From contig NZ_CP053697.2 of assembly GCF_013200955.2 (NCBI RefSeq), positions 1,736,001-1,800,000 on the forward strand: a DNA stretch of 64,000 bases, read 5' to 3'. A program made the position numbers and the translations under genes. This document shows, one piece after another, positions 19,786-45,738 of this stretch. The notes beneath the pieces are model-generated. The model saw only the letters and a list, made by a program, of their open reading frames with translations. It was not told the DNA's origin and did not search any database. Every line of letters starts with the position of its first letter. Positions within the stretch are counted from its first letter, which is position 1. The DNA comes from Pseudomonas campi (GTDB lineage: Bacteria > Pseudomonadota > Gammaproteobacteria > Pseudomonadales > Pseudomonadaceae).

Positions 19786-22395
19786 TTAGACCTGAATAGC
19801 AGGGATCTTGGCGTTGGCAGCGGCTTCGCGGAACTCGGCGATCTGATCGAAGCTCAGGTAGCGGTAAACGTCGGCAGCCATGCTGTCGATGTCAGCCGCG
19901 TACGCCATGTACTCCTCGACGGTCGGCAGTTTGCCGGTGATCGAGGCCACCGCTGCCAGTTCGGCAGAGGCCAGGTACACGTTGGTCGCGTCACCCAGGC
20001 GGTTCGGGAAGTTACGGGTCGAAGTGGAAACCACGGTCGAACCGGTCTGTACGCGTGCCTGGTTACCCATGCACAGCGAGCAGCCCGGCATTTCCATGCG
20101 TGCGCCAGCCTTGCCGTAGATGCCGTAGTAGCCTTCTTCGGTCAGCTGGTGGGCGTCCATCTTGGTTGGCGGTGCCAGCCACAGACGGGTTGGCAGGCCA
20201 CCTTTGACCTTGTCCAGCAGTTTGCCGGCGGCGCGGAAGTGACCGATGTTGGTCATGCACGAACCGATGAACACTTCGTCGATCTTCTCACCGGCGACGG
20301 TGGACAGCAGACGGGCGTCGTCCGGGTCGTTCGGCGCGCAGAGCACAGGCTCTTTGACGTCGGCCAGGTCGATCTCGATGATCTCGGCGTATTCGGCGTC
20401 CTTGTCGGCTTCCAGCAGTTGCGGGTTGGCCAGCCAGGCTTCCATGGCTTTGGCACGACGTTCCAGGGTACGGGCATCGCCGTAACCTTCGCCGATCATC
20501 CAGCGCAGCATGGTGATGTTGGAGCGCAGGTACTCGGCGATGGCCTTTTCCGGCAGCTTGATGGTGCAACCTGCAGCGGAACGTTCGGCCGAGGCGTCGG
20601 ACAGCTCGAAAGCCTGTTCAACGGTCAGCTCGTCCAGACCTTCGATCTCGAGGATGCGGCCGGAGAAGGCGTTGATCTTGCCCTTCTTCTCGACGGTCAG
20701 CAGGCCAGCCTTGATTGCGTAGTAAGGGATGGCATGGACCAGGTCACGCAGGGTAATGCCCGGTTGCAGCTTGCCCTTGAAGCGCACCAGTACCGACTCC
20801 GGCATGTCCAGCGGCATCACACCGGTGGCAGCGGCGAAGGCGACCAGGCCGGAACCGGCCGGGAAGGAGATGCCCATCGGGAAGCGGGTGTGCGAGTCGC
20901 CACCGGTACCGACGGTGTCCGGCAGCAGCATGCGGTTCAGCCAGCTGTGGATGATGCCGTCGCCCGGACGCAGGGACACGCCGCCGCGGGTCATGATGAA
21001 GTCCGGCAGGGTGTGGTGGGTGGTGACGTCGATCGGCTTCGGATAGGCCGCGGTGTGGCAGAAGGACTGCATCACCAGGTCAGCGGAGAAGCCCAGGCAC
21101 GCCAGGTCTTTCAGCTCGTCGCGGGTCATCGGGCCAGTGGTGTCCTGGGAGCCGACGGTGGTCATCTTCGGTTCGCAGTAGGTGCCCGGACGGACGCCTT
21201 TGCCTTCCGCCAGACCGCAGGCGCGGCCAACCATCTTCTGCGCCAGGGTGAAGCCCTTGCCGCTATCAACCGGGGATTCCGGCTTCTTGAACAGGGTGGA
21301 CGGAGCCAGACCCAGCTCGGCGCGGGCTTTCTCGGTCAGGCCACGGCCGACGATCAGCGGAATACGGCCGCCGGCGCGAACTTCGTCGAGCAGTACGTCA
21401 GTCTTCAGCTGGAAGCTGGTGACCAGCTCGTCGCTGCCATGGCGGCGCACTTCGCCTTTGATCGGGTACACGTCGATGACGTCGCCCATGGCCAGGTTGC
21501 TGCAATCGAATTCGATCGGCAGGGCACCGGCGTCTTCCATGGTGTTGTAGAAGATCGGAGCGATCTTGGTGCCGAAGCAGAAACCGCCAGCGCGCTTGTT
21601 CGGCACGTTGGGGATGTCGTCGCCGAAGAACCACAGTACCGAGTTGGTAGCGGATTTACGGGAAGAACCGGTACCGACCACGTCACCGACGTAGGCAACT
21701 GGGAAGCCTTTGGCTTTCAGGGCTTCCATCTGCTTGATCGGACCAACGGTGCCCGGAGCGTCCGGGTTGATGCCGTCGCGGGCCATTTTCAGCATGGCCA
21801 GGGCGTGCAGCGGGATGTCCGGGCGGGACCAGGCGTCCGGAGCCGGCGACAGGTCGTCGGTGTTGGTTTCGCCGGTGACCTTGAACACGGTCAGGGTGAC
21901 TTTTTCCGGAACGGCAGGGCGGTTCTGGAACCACTCGCCTTCGGCCCAGGAGGCCAGCACGGCTTTGGCGTTGGCATTGCCGGCCTTGGCTTTTTCGGCG
22001 ACGTCGTGGAAGGCGTCGAACATCAGCAGGGTGTGCTTCAGTTGCTCGGCGGCAACGGCGGACAGCTCGGCGTCGTCCAGCAGCTCAACCATGGTGGTGA
22101 TGTTGTAGCCACCTTGCATAGTGCCCAGCAGCTCGACGGCGCGGGTCTTGCTCAGCAGCGGGGAGCTGACTTCGCCCTTGGCCAGGGCAGAGAGGAAACC
22201 GGCCTTGACGTAGGCAGCTTCGTCCACGCCAGCAGGTACGCGGTTGGTGATCAGGTCGACCAGGAAGGCTTCTTCGCCGGCCGGAGGATTCTTCAGCAGC
22301 TCGACCAGGCCTGCGGTTTGTTCGGCGTTTAGCGGCTGGGGCACGATACCCTGAGCGGCACGCTCTGCTACGTGGTTGCGATAGGCTTCAAGCAC
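19786..22395 (-). CDS. acnB: Aconitate hydratase B
   Basis: AcnB, 869 residues, interconverts citrate and isocitrate in the TCA cycle. An N-terminal HEAT-like domain precedes the aconitase domains. The [4Fe-4S] ligands are C713 (in GSCMTNIGH), C772 and C775 (in CSLCMGNQ), each three residues later than in the E. coli enzyme. I chose the GTG at 22395 (reading [16 protein letters not shown]), which gives the family's usual N-terminus and has AGGG 8 bases upstream; an ATG 15 bases earlier is possible. It is transcribed leftward from a likely promoter at 22685-22713. Confidence 0.96.
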
Positions 22396-22513
22396 AGTTT
22401 TTACCCTCATCAGTGGTTGCGAGGTGGCTCGCAACGCTCATCCAGAAAACCATCGCACACTGCGCTTCAGCGCTTTTTGAGCGCCTTGGCCGGTGTGTCG
22501 ATAGCCTCATACA

Positions 22514-22653
22514 AGAAGCTGTTTTCAAAGTTTTACGCCGCAGGAACAAGGGCGATGAGGGCTGGCGCAGGTCGTGAGGAGGGCTCGCAAACCTGGCGCC
22601 AACGTCGTTCCTGGCGGATTAACTGTGCTCGTGACGCTTTGAAAACAGCTTCT
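22514..22653. repeat. 140-base inverted-repeat element in the acnB leader
   Basis: Perfect 17-bp inverted repeat (22514-22530 and 22637-22653, core AGAAGCTGTTTTCAAAG). The interior has further imperfect complementarity (GCGCAGGT facing ACCTGGCGC, and GCAGGAAC facing its complement). It lies between the predicted acnB promoter and the acnB start, so it would fold in the 5' untranslated RNA. It could be a dispersed MITE-like repeat or a leader regulator. Confidence 0.8.
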
Positions 22654-22684
22654 GACGGACATCGACGCCTAAAATGGCGGTCCG

Positions 22685-22713
22685 ATTCTACTGGAACAAG
22701 ACGTTAAAGTTAA
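22685..22713 (-). promoter_or_regulatory. Predicted acnB promoter
   Basis: On the minus strand: -35 TTAACT (22713-22708), 17-base spacer, -10 TAGAAT (22690-22685). Transcription would start near 22678 and give a leader of about 280 bases. The remaining bases to 22857 show nothing else I can name. Confidence 0.6.
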
Positions 22714-22857
22714 GCGCAAAGCCCGATGCGACTGGCCTGCTGACCTGCGACCAAGGTCTGGCTGCACAAGTCGATAAACGTCTGGCCGGTCAGGGTGACC
22801 CACTCAGGCTAAGCGGCTAATATGACCTGCCTGTTTCAGCGTCCAACTCTACTCGTC

Positions 22858-23334
22858 ATGTCCAATCAGCGCATCAAGACGCCCTGCGTCGGCCTCTGTT
22901 CCACGGTTTACGGTGACCTCGTGTGCCGCGGCTGCAAGCGCTTCCATCATGAGGTGGTGAACTGGAACCTGTACGCCGAGGATGAGAAACGCGCCGTCTG
23001 GCGCCGCCTGGAGATCCTTCTGGTGCAGGTGATGCAGGGCAAGCTGGAGGTTTTCGATCCCCAGCGCCTGCGCGCGCAGCTGGAACAGCATCAGGTGCGC
23101 TTCGTTCCGGATCAGTCGGTCTACTGCTGGGCCTATCAGCTGATTGCCCGGGGCTCGCGGGTGATCAACCGGCTGGATGCCTATGGCGTGGTGCTGATGC
23201 CGGAATTTCGTGACTGGGCGCTGCCAGAGCTGCGCGAGGCCATCGATCGGGAGTTCTTTCTGCTTTCCGAGGCGCATTACGAGCGCTACATCGCCCCCAG
23301 GTTTCTCCTCGAAGGCATGGAAATCCGCGTCTGA
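22858..23334 (+). CDS. DUF1289 cysteine-cluster protein
   Basis: 158 residues. The N-terminus has TPCVGLCSTVYGDLVCRGCKR, a four-cysteine cluster that defines DUF1289 (small Fe-S-type domain), followed by HHEVVNWNLY. The remaining 110 residues are an extension without a domain I recognise. ATG at 22858 was chosen just before the Cys cluster. It is encoded divergently from acnB; function unknown. Confidence 0.85.
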   Translation: MSNQRIKTPCVGLCSTVYGDLVCRGCKRFHHEVVNWNLYAEDEKRAVWRRLEILLVQVMQGKLEVFDPQRLRAQLEQHQVRFVPDQSVYCWAYQLIARGSRVINRLDAYGVVLMPEFRDWALPELREAIDREFFLLSEAHYERYIAPRFLLEGMEIRV

Positions 23335-44629: not shown

Positions 44630-45598
44630 ATGATCGTTGACCGCCAGGGCAGACGCTTTCGTAATCTGCGCATTAGCCTGACCGCCGCCTGCAACTATGC
44701 CTGCACCTACTGCGTGCCGGACGGCAAGCGTCTGGTCGCGGCCCAGGACGAGTTGTCCGCCGAGGCCATGGTGCGCGGTGTTGCCTACCTGATCGAAGCT
44801 GCCGGCATCGAGCGTCTGCGCATTACCGGTGGCGAGCCGCTGGTCAGTCCCAAGCTCGACCTGTTCCTGCGTGAAGTCAGCCAACTCGGCCTCAGCGACA
44901 TCAGTCTGACCAGCAATGGCCAGTTGCTCAGTCGCAAGCTGCCGCTGCTGCTGGAAAGCGGCATGCGCCGGCTGAATATCTCCCTGGATACCCTCGACCC
45001 CGATGCGTTCAAGCGCATTGCCCGTGGCGGCGATCTGGCCAGCGTGCTGCAGGGCCTGGAAGAGGCGCGCGCGGCGGGCATGCAGATCAAGATCAACATG
45101 GTGCCGCTGCGCGGGCAGAACCACGAGCAGGTCTTGCCGATGCTCGATTACTGCCTGGAGCGCGGCTTCGAGCTGCGTTTCATCGAACTGATGCGCATGG
45201 GCCATCTGGCCCGTGATGGCAATGCGTTCCTGCAGCAGTTCTATGGCATGGACGAGTTGCTGCTGCGCATCGGCGAGCAGCATGAGTTCGTCCAGGCCGA
45301 CGCGCCGCTGGATGCCACCGCCTTGCGCTACCAGATTCCCGGGCAGGGCTACTTCGGCGTCATCGCCAACGAAAGCGTGCCGTTCTGCCGCACTTGCTCG
45401 CGCCTGCGCCTGTCGTCCACCGGCTGGCTGCACGGCTGCCTGTCGTCGAGCAACCGCCACTATGTCGGTGACCTGCTCGACAAGCCGCGTCACCAGGCCT
45501 TGCCGGCGCTACAGCGGCTGCTGGTGCGGGCGCTGGGCGACAAACAGGACATTGCCTTTGCGGGCGGTGTTACCGTGATGAAAATTATCGGCGGCTGA
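44630..45598 (+). CDS. moaA: GTP 3',8-cyclase, MoaA family
   Basis: 322 residues, radical SAM enzyme of the first step of molybdenum cofactor synthesis. N-terminal cluster C21-x3-C25-x2-C28, and the second MoaA-specific cluster CRTC followed by 13 residues and another Cys (CX2CX13C). The C-terminal Gly-Gly required for activity is present. ATG 44630, not the TTG two codons upstream, has GGAG at a good distance. It stands alone without moaBCDE, so it may be one of two moaA paralogues. Confidence 0.93.
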   Translation: MIVDRQGRRFRNLRISLTAACNYACTYCVPDGKRLVAAQDELSAEAMVRGVAYLIEAAGIERLRITGGEPLVSPKLDLFLREVSQLGLSDISLTSNGQLLSRKLPLLLESGMRRLNISLDTLDPDAFKRIARGGDLASVLQGLEEARAAGMQIKINMVPLRGQNHEQVLPMLDYCLERGFELRFIELMRMGHLARDGNAFLQQFYGMDELLLRIGEQHEFVQADAPLDATALRYQIPGQGYFGVIANESVPFCRTCSRLRLSSTGWLHGCLSSSNRHYVGDLLDKPRHQALPALQRLLVRALGDKQDIAFAGGVTVMKIIGG

Positions 45599-45628
45599 TG
45601 ATCTGCTGCGCGTCGGCCATGCGTCGTT

Positions 45629-45686
45629 GAAAACACGCTCGGAAAGCTCATTTACTGCAGTAAACTCCGCTTCCTCGCGTCTTTTC
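45629..45686. repeat. Imperfect hairpin around a 14-bp palindrome
   Basis: A perfect palindrome TTTACTGCAGTAAA (45651-45664) is flanked by partially complementary arms (GAAAA...CGC...GGAAAGC facing GCTTCC...GCG...TTTTC). It fills most of the 140-base gap between moaA and the radical SAM gene. No T-run follows, so it is more likely a dispersed repeat than a terminator. Confidence 0.65.
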
Positions 45687-45738
45687 GCCTAGCCTGGCTC
45701 TAGCTCGCGAGATCATCAATTATTCGTGTATCTCAAAA

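Follow-up and report, generated by a model that had tools for sequence, protein, structure and literature searches.

A conserved structured element in the acnB leader of Pseudomonas campi and its relatives carries two exposed segments antisense to the acnB translation start

RNAs that sequester a Shine-Dalgarno sequence include, as a general kind, translational riboswitches and autogenous leaders. The iron-responsive element is a hairpin with a CAGUGN loop and a bulged C. The enzyme encoded by acnB sets the flux into the TCA cycle. The available passages of PMC2851614 attribute the response of acnB to iron in P. aeruginosa to the PrrF sRNAs; there, acnB is described as lower in low iron and as de-repressed on deletion of prrF; according to the available passages of PMC6237836, the acnB transcript is higher in an hfq mutant. 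No acnB leader RNA of Pseudomonas was described in the literature searched, which was covered by title and by passages and was mostly non-subscription; this holds for the available parts of PMC2851614, PMC6321483, PMC7821165, PMC4448311, PMC6237836, PMC2864571, PMC3733652, and PMC2267715. The string 'aconit' is absent from the main text of PMC2864571 as available, and the motifs of that paper were compared through their Rfam entries.

The window is the whole stretch of DNA that was analysed, 64,000 nt of the P. campi genome, and all coordinates are those of the window. A sequence-only reading had noted within the acnB 5′ leader an inverted repeat with perfect 17-bp arms. The arms are indeed perfect, AGAAGCTGTTTTCAAAG lying at 22514–22530 and its reverse complement at 22637–22653; the extended arms are 24 nt long, 88% complementary, and spaced by 92 nt. 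A 158-nt stretch of the leader folded better than its dinucleotide shuffles (z of −5.15 for the minus and −5.42 for the plus strand), and none of 200 shuffles folded as well on either strand, both strands folding about equally well. No Rfam family matched the region 22300–22900 (E up to 5), the sole hit (sR32, 11.6 bits vs a cut-off of 40) being at chance level. The features are as follows.

22685–22713, minus strand: conserved sigma-70-like putative promoter, TTAACT / TAGAAT, with a small hairpin after it, at 22667–22678.
22514–22653, minus strand: acnB leader element, a structured RNA of 140 nt by its arms, folds, and conservation.
22637–22653, minus strand: 5′ strand of P1, AGAAGCTGTTTTCAAAG, nearly invariant in the alignments.
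22622–22629, minus strand: segment A, AGCACAGT, a bulge left unpaired on the 5′ side and antisense to the start region of acnB, exact in 109/110 genus loci.
22605–22617, minus strand: 5′ strand of P2, with compensatory changes.
22562–22603, minus strand: P3 hairpin, with compensatory changes.
22554–22561, minus strand: segment B, CCCTCATC, mostly unpaired and antisense to the acnB Shine-Dalgarno, exact in 98/110 genus loci.
22538–22549, minus strand: 3′ strand of P2, with compensatory changes.
22531–22537, minus strand: 3′ strand of the internal loop, CGTAAAA, in which CGT is paired to the ACG of the opposite (5′) strand.
22514–22530, minus strand: 3′ strand of P1, CTTTGAAAACAGCTTCT, with one position alternating between A and G opposite U (U-A in 18 and U·G in 18 of 36 representatives).
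22412–22513, minus strand: linker from the element to the Shine-Dalgarno, with a significant anti-Shine-Dalgarno match in 2/156 leaders.
22404–22411, minus strand: GATGAGGG, the Shine-Dalgarno region of acnB, to which both segment B and the PrrF core are complementary, in 110/110 genus loci.
22391–22398, minus strand: ACTGTGCT around the acnB GTG start (22395–22393), complementary to segment A, in 110/110 genus loci.
19786–22395, minus strand: acnB, bifunctional aconitate hydratase 2 / 2-methylisocitrate dehydratase, with an inferred GTG start, from family scans and GTG conservation.

The identity of acnB was given by NCBIfam TIGR00117 (1528 bits), both family scans having been run with a start 9 nt upstream of this GTG. 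The GUG at 22395–22393 was taken as the start because it is present in all 161 family loci examined; it stays an inference, since the Shine-Dalgarno contains an ATG, which is in frame with acnB in 95 and out of frame in 15 of the 110 genus loci. Genera are denoted below by g-numbers, g1 being the home genus. It may be noted that the GTG (in the region 22384–22395 of the window) is universal in the 161 loci, though g13 and some g6 loci alter the bases just before it.

The promoter-like site at 22713–22685 on the minus strand, also part of the sequence-only reading, was recovered (one site vs 0.1 expected in shuffles). It lies on the far side of the element from acnB; together with the small hairpin and the translation start, it forms the further conserved islands in the leader. 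The divergent neighbour of acnB encodes a DUF1289 protein. The element is upstream of acnB on its strand in 110/110 loci and downstream of the conserved promoter-like site, a position that would suit a leader sequestering a ribosome-binding site if transcription starts at that site. A leader-peptide attenuator was considered and rejected: an ATG stands just before the arm in 84/110 loci, but the lengths and ends of the reading frames are scattered.

When the 158-nt stretch was used in BLASTN, 147 of 149 genus genomes matched, the own genome included, mostly at one place each. Some genomes gave two matches, the second ones being known in part. The loci analysed within the genus come from 110 of the 147 matching genomes (30 from the BLASTN output and 80 fetched), and L110–L112 were left out of the leader alignment and of the representatives. 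In all 110 oriented loci, the element is upstream of acnB and on the same strand, its 3′ end being 49–123 nt from the GUG; a structured element in the acnB leader, as the sequence-only reading had it, is thereby borne out on the acnB strand and at a conserved place. In both element-negative genus genomes, the AcnB search was also without a match. One locus (L049, G120) lacks about 70 nt of the linker, leaving 49 nt between element and GTG, and retains both segments, the Shine-Dalgarno, and the start.

A covariance model built from 36 representatives matched 161 of 198 family genomes, in 17 of 19 genera (for 17 element-negative family genomes, the genus is that of the tally). The matches in g7 were weak (E of 7e-5 to 1e-3). 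In the own genome, the model found one strong site, and the next site (E 0.033) belongs to another hairpin family. Because of its palindromic make-up, the element is matched by the model on the opposite strand too (40.7 vs 122.9 bits). In G232, the element is present but split by an insertion. Insertions inside the element interior were seen at this locus (L207, in g15) and at L110, with the P1 arms and the CCCTC segment intact, and the two loci are natural tests of which parts of the element are needed.

An order-wide search with the model matched 14 of 293 genomes, 13 of them in the same family. The remaining match, in G574, is a copy of a different repeat, 13 kb from the acnB of that genome; thus, no acnB-leader element outside the family was found among the 293 order genomes sampled. 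AcnB was sought in 12 genomes, namely G574 and 11 that lack a proper match to the element. Among the latter, it was without a match in G069, G133, G185, G225, and G262, and five g5 genomes and one g3 genome have acnB with another leader that lacks the element. Among the matches listed by a public pattern scan were Pseudomonas, Stutzerimonas, and one Pseudomonadales MAG.

The leaders of g5 (L328–L332) and g3 (L333) contain GATGAGGG without the element. In g5, GATGAGGG was found in 5/5 and ACTGTGCT in 3/5 loci; the g3 leader reads ACCGTGCT. As g5 keeps GATGAGGG in this setting, the Shine-Dalgarno is conserved independently of the element and has another cause of conservation too, plausibly PrrF. 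Several g5 leaders look alike by eye (TTAGGGCTGTGT..AGGCG..GCAACC..CAGTTACCCAGGTTGCC), and their parts CAGTTA and TTACCC are, also by eye, complementary to the acnB start region; these leaders possibly hold an analogous element.

The covariation analysis that had been proposed for acnB leaders bore out P2 and P3, while the 17 bp of P1 are nearly invariant and therefore uninformative. Changes on both sides were observed for 7/12 pairs of P2 and 9/12 pairs of P3 among the 36 representatives. The covariation score was reached by 0/500 shuffles and the number of pairs changed on both sides by 2/500, and slid controls were lower. On a tree of 88 sequences, compensatory double changes numbered 49 for P2 (4–6 for slid controls) and 120 for P3 (5–13); 90 loci were searched, and the tree was based on 88 rows, each from a different source, of an alignment in which matches on the other strand were also present. 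The alignment made with the covariance model is biased toward the model's own structure. RNAalifold, run on alignment A2, did not predict P2; the support for this stem consists of counts on a hand assignment, because P2 was assigned manually before the model was built. The internal loop, CGUC(ACG)AGCACAGU / CGUAAAA, is conserved within the genus to the same degree as P1. Read on the acnB-sense strand, G·U cells exceeded A·C cells (168 vs 84 overall, 65 vs 5 in P1), so the acnB-sense RNA is favoured; P2 alone showed the reverse (A·C 49, G·U 27), contrary to this strand argument.

The main point, overlooked by the sequence-only reading, is that the element has two exposed segments antisense to the acnB translation start. 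Segment A, AGCACAGU, is antisense to ACUGUGCU, over the GUG start, and segment B, CCCUCAUC, to GAUGAGGG, the Shine-Dalgarno. At the DNA level, CCCTCATC and GATGAGGG are reverse complements of each other, as are AGCACAGT and ACTGTGCT; GATGAGGG, ACTGTGCTTGAAGCC, and GTG are each found in 110/110 genus loci. In the window, segment A is 223 nt from the start and segment B is 142 nt from the Shine-Dalgarno. Since the order is A, B, Shine-Dalgarno, start, the two helices would be nested one inside the other and would form a pseudoknot with P1/P2. By itself, each long-range helix has about −12 kcal/mol. The mean unpaired probability was 0.47 each for the Shine-Dalgarno and the start when the linker and start were folded alone, and 0.35 and 0.28, respectively, in whole-leader folds; in these predicted folds, both sites are moderately accessible without the pseudoknot.

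To count the matches, the 161 loci were reduced to 156 distinct interiors of 17 genera, and a match was scored when longer than in shuffles at p ≤ 0.05. The Shine-Dalgarno was matched in 115/156 interiors, compared with 11/156 for a coding-sequence control, and the match of the bulge to the start was present in 132/156. With mononucleotide shuffles, the anti-Shine-Dalgarno match was found in 116/156 interiors and in 2/156 linkers. In g1, the anti-Shine-Dalgarno match was significant in 98/105 and the anti-start match in 100/105. Outside g1, the figures were only 17/51 and 32/51, at least one of the two being significant in 39/51 leaders by row count. The anti-Shine-Dalgarno match was absent from g7 (0/4), g18 (0/6), g11 (0/3), g10 (0/3), g17 (0/2), and g19 (0/1), and was sparse in g15 (1/9), g9 (2/6), g13 (2/4), and g16 (1/2); CCCTC is mostly retained in g15, g9, and g17. 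The anti-start match fails in g7, in g19, in 5/6 of g18, in 5/6 of g6, and in 3/4 of g13. Both matches are gone, and P1 is kept, in g7 and in g18 except L193. Conserved complementarity to the Shine-Dalgarno and start, with co-variation, is hence strong in g1 and partial elsewhere.

Because related sequences are not independent, more weight was given to relocation and co-variation of the segments. Covariation is not visible within g1, as the g1 start region never varies. The octamer of segment B has left the junction for the P3 loop in four g1 loci (L086, L096, L108, L109). The P3 loop of g6 holds CCTCATC(A), and that of g9 and g15 the shorter forms CCCTCA or CCCTC (L190 has ACCCTCAT). In g13, the Shine-Dalgarno AAAGAGGG occurs with a matching CCCTCTTT in L161 and L171. 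In g16, L170 has the Shine-Dalgarno GATGAGGT, one G being lost, with ACCTCATC, one C being lost. In g6, the start region ATTGTGCT of L182 faces AGCATAAT. When partners were swapped in hand-picked duplexes, the own partner was the best for 5/6 anti-Shine-Dalgarno and 5/6 anti-start windows. The exception was L155 of g6, which paired better with the canonical start (−9.1) than with its own (−7.4), and whose anti-Shine-Dalgarno window paired better with the g16 Shine-Dalgarno.

The core of PrrF, CCTCATCAG, is complementary to the acnB Shine-Dalgarno, and CCTCATC is common to this core and segment B. The 21-nt core was identical in 28/30 copies from the relatives sample and the own genome. At E ≤ 0.1, PrrF was matched in 28/28 genomes representing 18 genera, 25 of the matches being over the family cut-off; the cores were viewed in one copy per genome, and the core was placed imperfectly in several of these 28 loci (e.g., L397, L403, L407, L408). 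Among the g13 genomes, G160 and G187 have an unaltered PrrF core, and the core of G176 retains CTCATCAGG. The Shine-Dalgarno and the cis segment of g13 have thus changed together while the PrrF seed stayed, which argues that the segment tracks the Shine-Dalgarno and not PrrF. With the core alone, the Shine-Dalgarno (−24.1) was among the best sites, tying with sites in the coding sequence (−24.3, −24.1). In a scan of whole PrrF in 30-nt windows, the energy minimum fell inside the element (−28.8 at −220 vs −23.7 at −20), and this goes against placing PrrF at the Shine-Dalgarno. The earlier suggestion of PrrF acting through a structured leader is plausible in its outcome, as the core fits the Shine-Dalgarno and the available passages of PMC2851614 describe PrrF control; the place of action is probably not the hairpin, although the whole-PrrF scan points there.

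The likely role of the element, in our view, is translational control in cis: by forming a pseudoknot, it would sequester the ribosome site of acnB, beside PrrF. The evidence is computational throughout and comprises the fold, the conservation of the element, the covariation in P2 and P3, the complementarity, and, in some lineages, relocation and co-variation of the segments. Loops exposed by the element are antisense to the ribosome-binding site and start codon of acnB itself, and it is therefore probably a built-in translation lock. The leader would be transcribed from the conserved promoter. P1, the conserved asymmetric internal loop, P2, and P3 would fold into a domain exposing the two segments. 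Segment A (AGCACAGU) would then pair over the GUG and segment B (CCCUCAUC) with the Shine-Dalgarno, and the two nested long-range helices, pseudoknotted with P1/P2, would close the ribosome site, with repression as the presumed effect. A signal read by the invariant P1/internal loop, from a protein such as apo-AcnB or from a small molecule, might shift the balance between the locked and open states. PrrF would act in trans and add repression that depends on iron, its target probably being this same Shine-Dalgarno. More tentatively, and as a possibility that we would not call probable, the element may represent a riboswitch of a new class or an autogenous sensor of aconitase, in which P1 and the internal loop bind citrate, isocitrate, 2-methylisocitrate, or apo-AcnB and gate the double pseudoknot that covers the Shine-Dalgarno and start of acnB, so that a cis sensor and the iron-responsive PrrF would act on one ribosome site.

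The strong conservation of P1 can be read otherwise. P1 is the most conserved part, in sequence as well, even in g7, which lacks the internal loop and the antisense matches, and the conservation of both its strands points to recognition beyond pairing alone. The element might thus be mainly a module for mRNA stability or processing, its long stem being a site for RNase III, another nuclease, or an RNA-binding protein, and the antisense segments being secondary. Such a module leaves unexplained why 115 and 132 of 156 leaders have the antisense matches, vs 11/156 for the control, and why the segments relocate and co-vary, and we regard it as unlikely. A role tied to PrrF itself, in which the anti-Shine-Dalgarno segment mimics or competes with PrrF by shielding its target or acting as a PrrF-like decoy and does not block the ribosome, would fit the CCTCATC shared with the PrrF core, the wide occurrence of PrrF, and the PrrF control of acnB in P. 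aeruginosa described in the available passages of PMC2851614. We find this quite unlikely: the Shine-Dalgarno and cis segment of g13 changed jointly while 2/3 of the PrrF cores viewed did not, segment A is not PrrF-like, and in g5 and g3 PrrF and GATGAGGG are present in the absence of the element. That the perfect inverted arms adjoin a promoter-like site and that both strands fold could also suggest a DNA element, either paired operator sites or a cruciform site. The compensatory changes of P2 and P3, the G·U bias of P1, the fixed orientation to acnB, and the antisense pairing to the start speak against it, and we hold it to be extremely improbable.

A passenger repeat that had landed in the leader was the other suggestion of the sequence-only reading, and it is contradicted by the presence of the element in the acnB leaders of relatives and by the lack of a second strong copy in the own genome. 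A genome-wide search for the arms with up to 2 mismatches gave 2 occurrences in 4.44 Mb, both being these arms. A dispersed hairpin repeat of about 125 nt was found elsewhere, with a copy in the window at 45596–45719 (minus strand) and others at L114, L365–L368, L375, and L380. Its core reads AGCGTCGCGAGCGAAG...GTTTAC..GTAAATGAGCA...AACGCAGC...GAGCGCAGTAGCT, the outer arms being variable and complementary. A model of this repeat gave at least 132 hits in the own genome (147 candidates scored) and 0–70 in 15 other genus genomes; four loci tested had no Rfam match. Possibly this repeat belongs to a stem-loop family that has already been published, for example Ppu-9, whose length is given as 124 nt in the available passages of PMC2267715. 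One copy of the repeat shares 16/17 nt, AAGCGTCACGAGC(G/A)CAG, with the internal loop of the element, and nine A4 repeat copies agree in the shared motif partly by selection, as they were picked by that motif. The shared motif, in the 5′ internal-loop sequence, suggests a possible homology between the acnB element and this family, but the match of the reciprocal model was only marginal. The element might then be a domesticated copy of the repeat with no regulatory role. We judge this very improbable, as the element stands at one locus across a bacterial family while copies of the repeat vary from 0 to at least 132 per genus genome, and the repeat model found the acnB element at 1/59 loci searched, with an E of 0.028.

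If the element acts as the cis-acting lock that we favour, a family-conserved RNA antisense to a PrrF-targeted ribosome site would be a second layer of acnB control. It would offer a concrete candidate RNA for how aconitase levels are sensed, in bacteria that are easily handled, and a test case for possible competition between a cis and a trans regulator over shared nucleotides.

An iron-responsive element was considered and rejected, an IRE-like pattern being present in just 2/161 interiors. Like the Pseudomonas motifs of Weinberg 2010 (gabT, gyrA, rmf, icd, Pseudomon-Rho, and others; available parts of PMC2864571), the element is a candidate structured RNA of restricted distribution. It shares post-transcriptional control of acnB, and a possible protein ligand, with the apo-AcnB autoregulation of E. 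coli; according to the available passages of PMC7821165, the E. coli site is a 3′UTR stem-loop near an RNase E site, whereas the present element lies in the 5′ leader. With PrrF (RF00444), it has in common that the PrrF core and segment B are complementary to one acnB Shine-Dalgarno; PrrF, in contrast, acts in trans from another locus, and segment B of g13 has followed the Shine-Dalgarno. A leader that sequesters the ribosome site is a known kind. Like translational riboswitches and autogenous leaders, the acnB element has a structured 5′ leader, conserved unpaired segments facing the ribosome site, and a sensor-like invariant core. Unlike them, it belongs here to one bacterial family, is without an Rfam match, and has two separate long-range helices, one for the Shine-Dalgarno and one for the start codon. 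In Rfam and in the literature searched, as far as its available parts go, the element family, the double long-range pairing, and the overlap of the cis segment with an sRNA target are without precedent.
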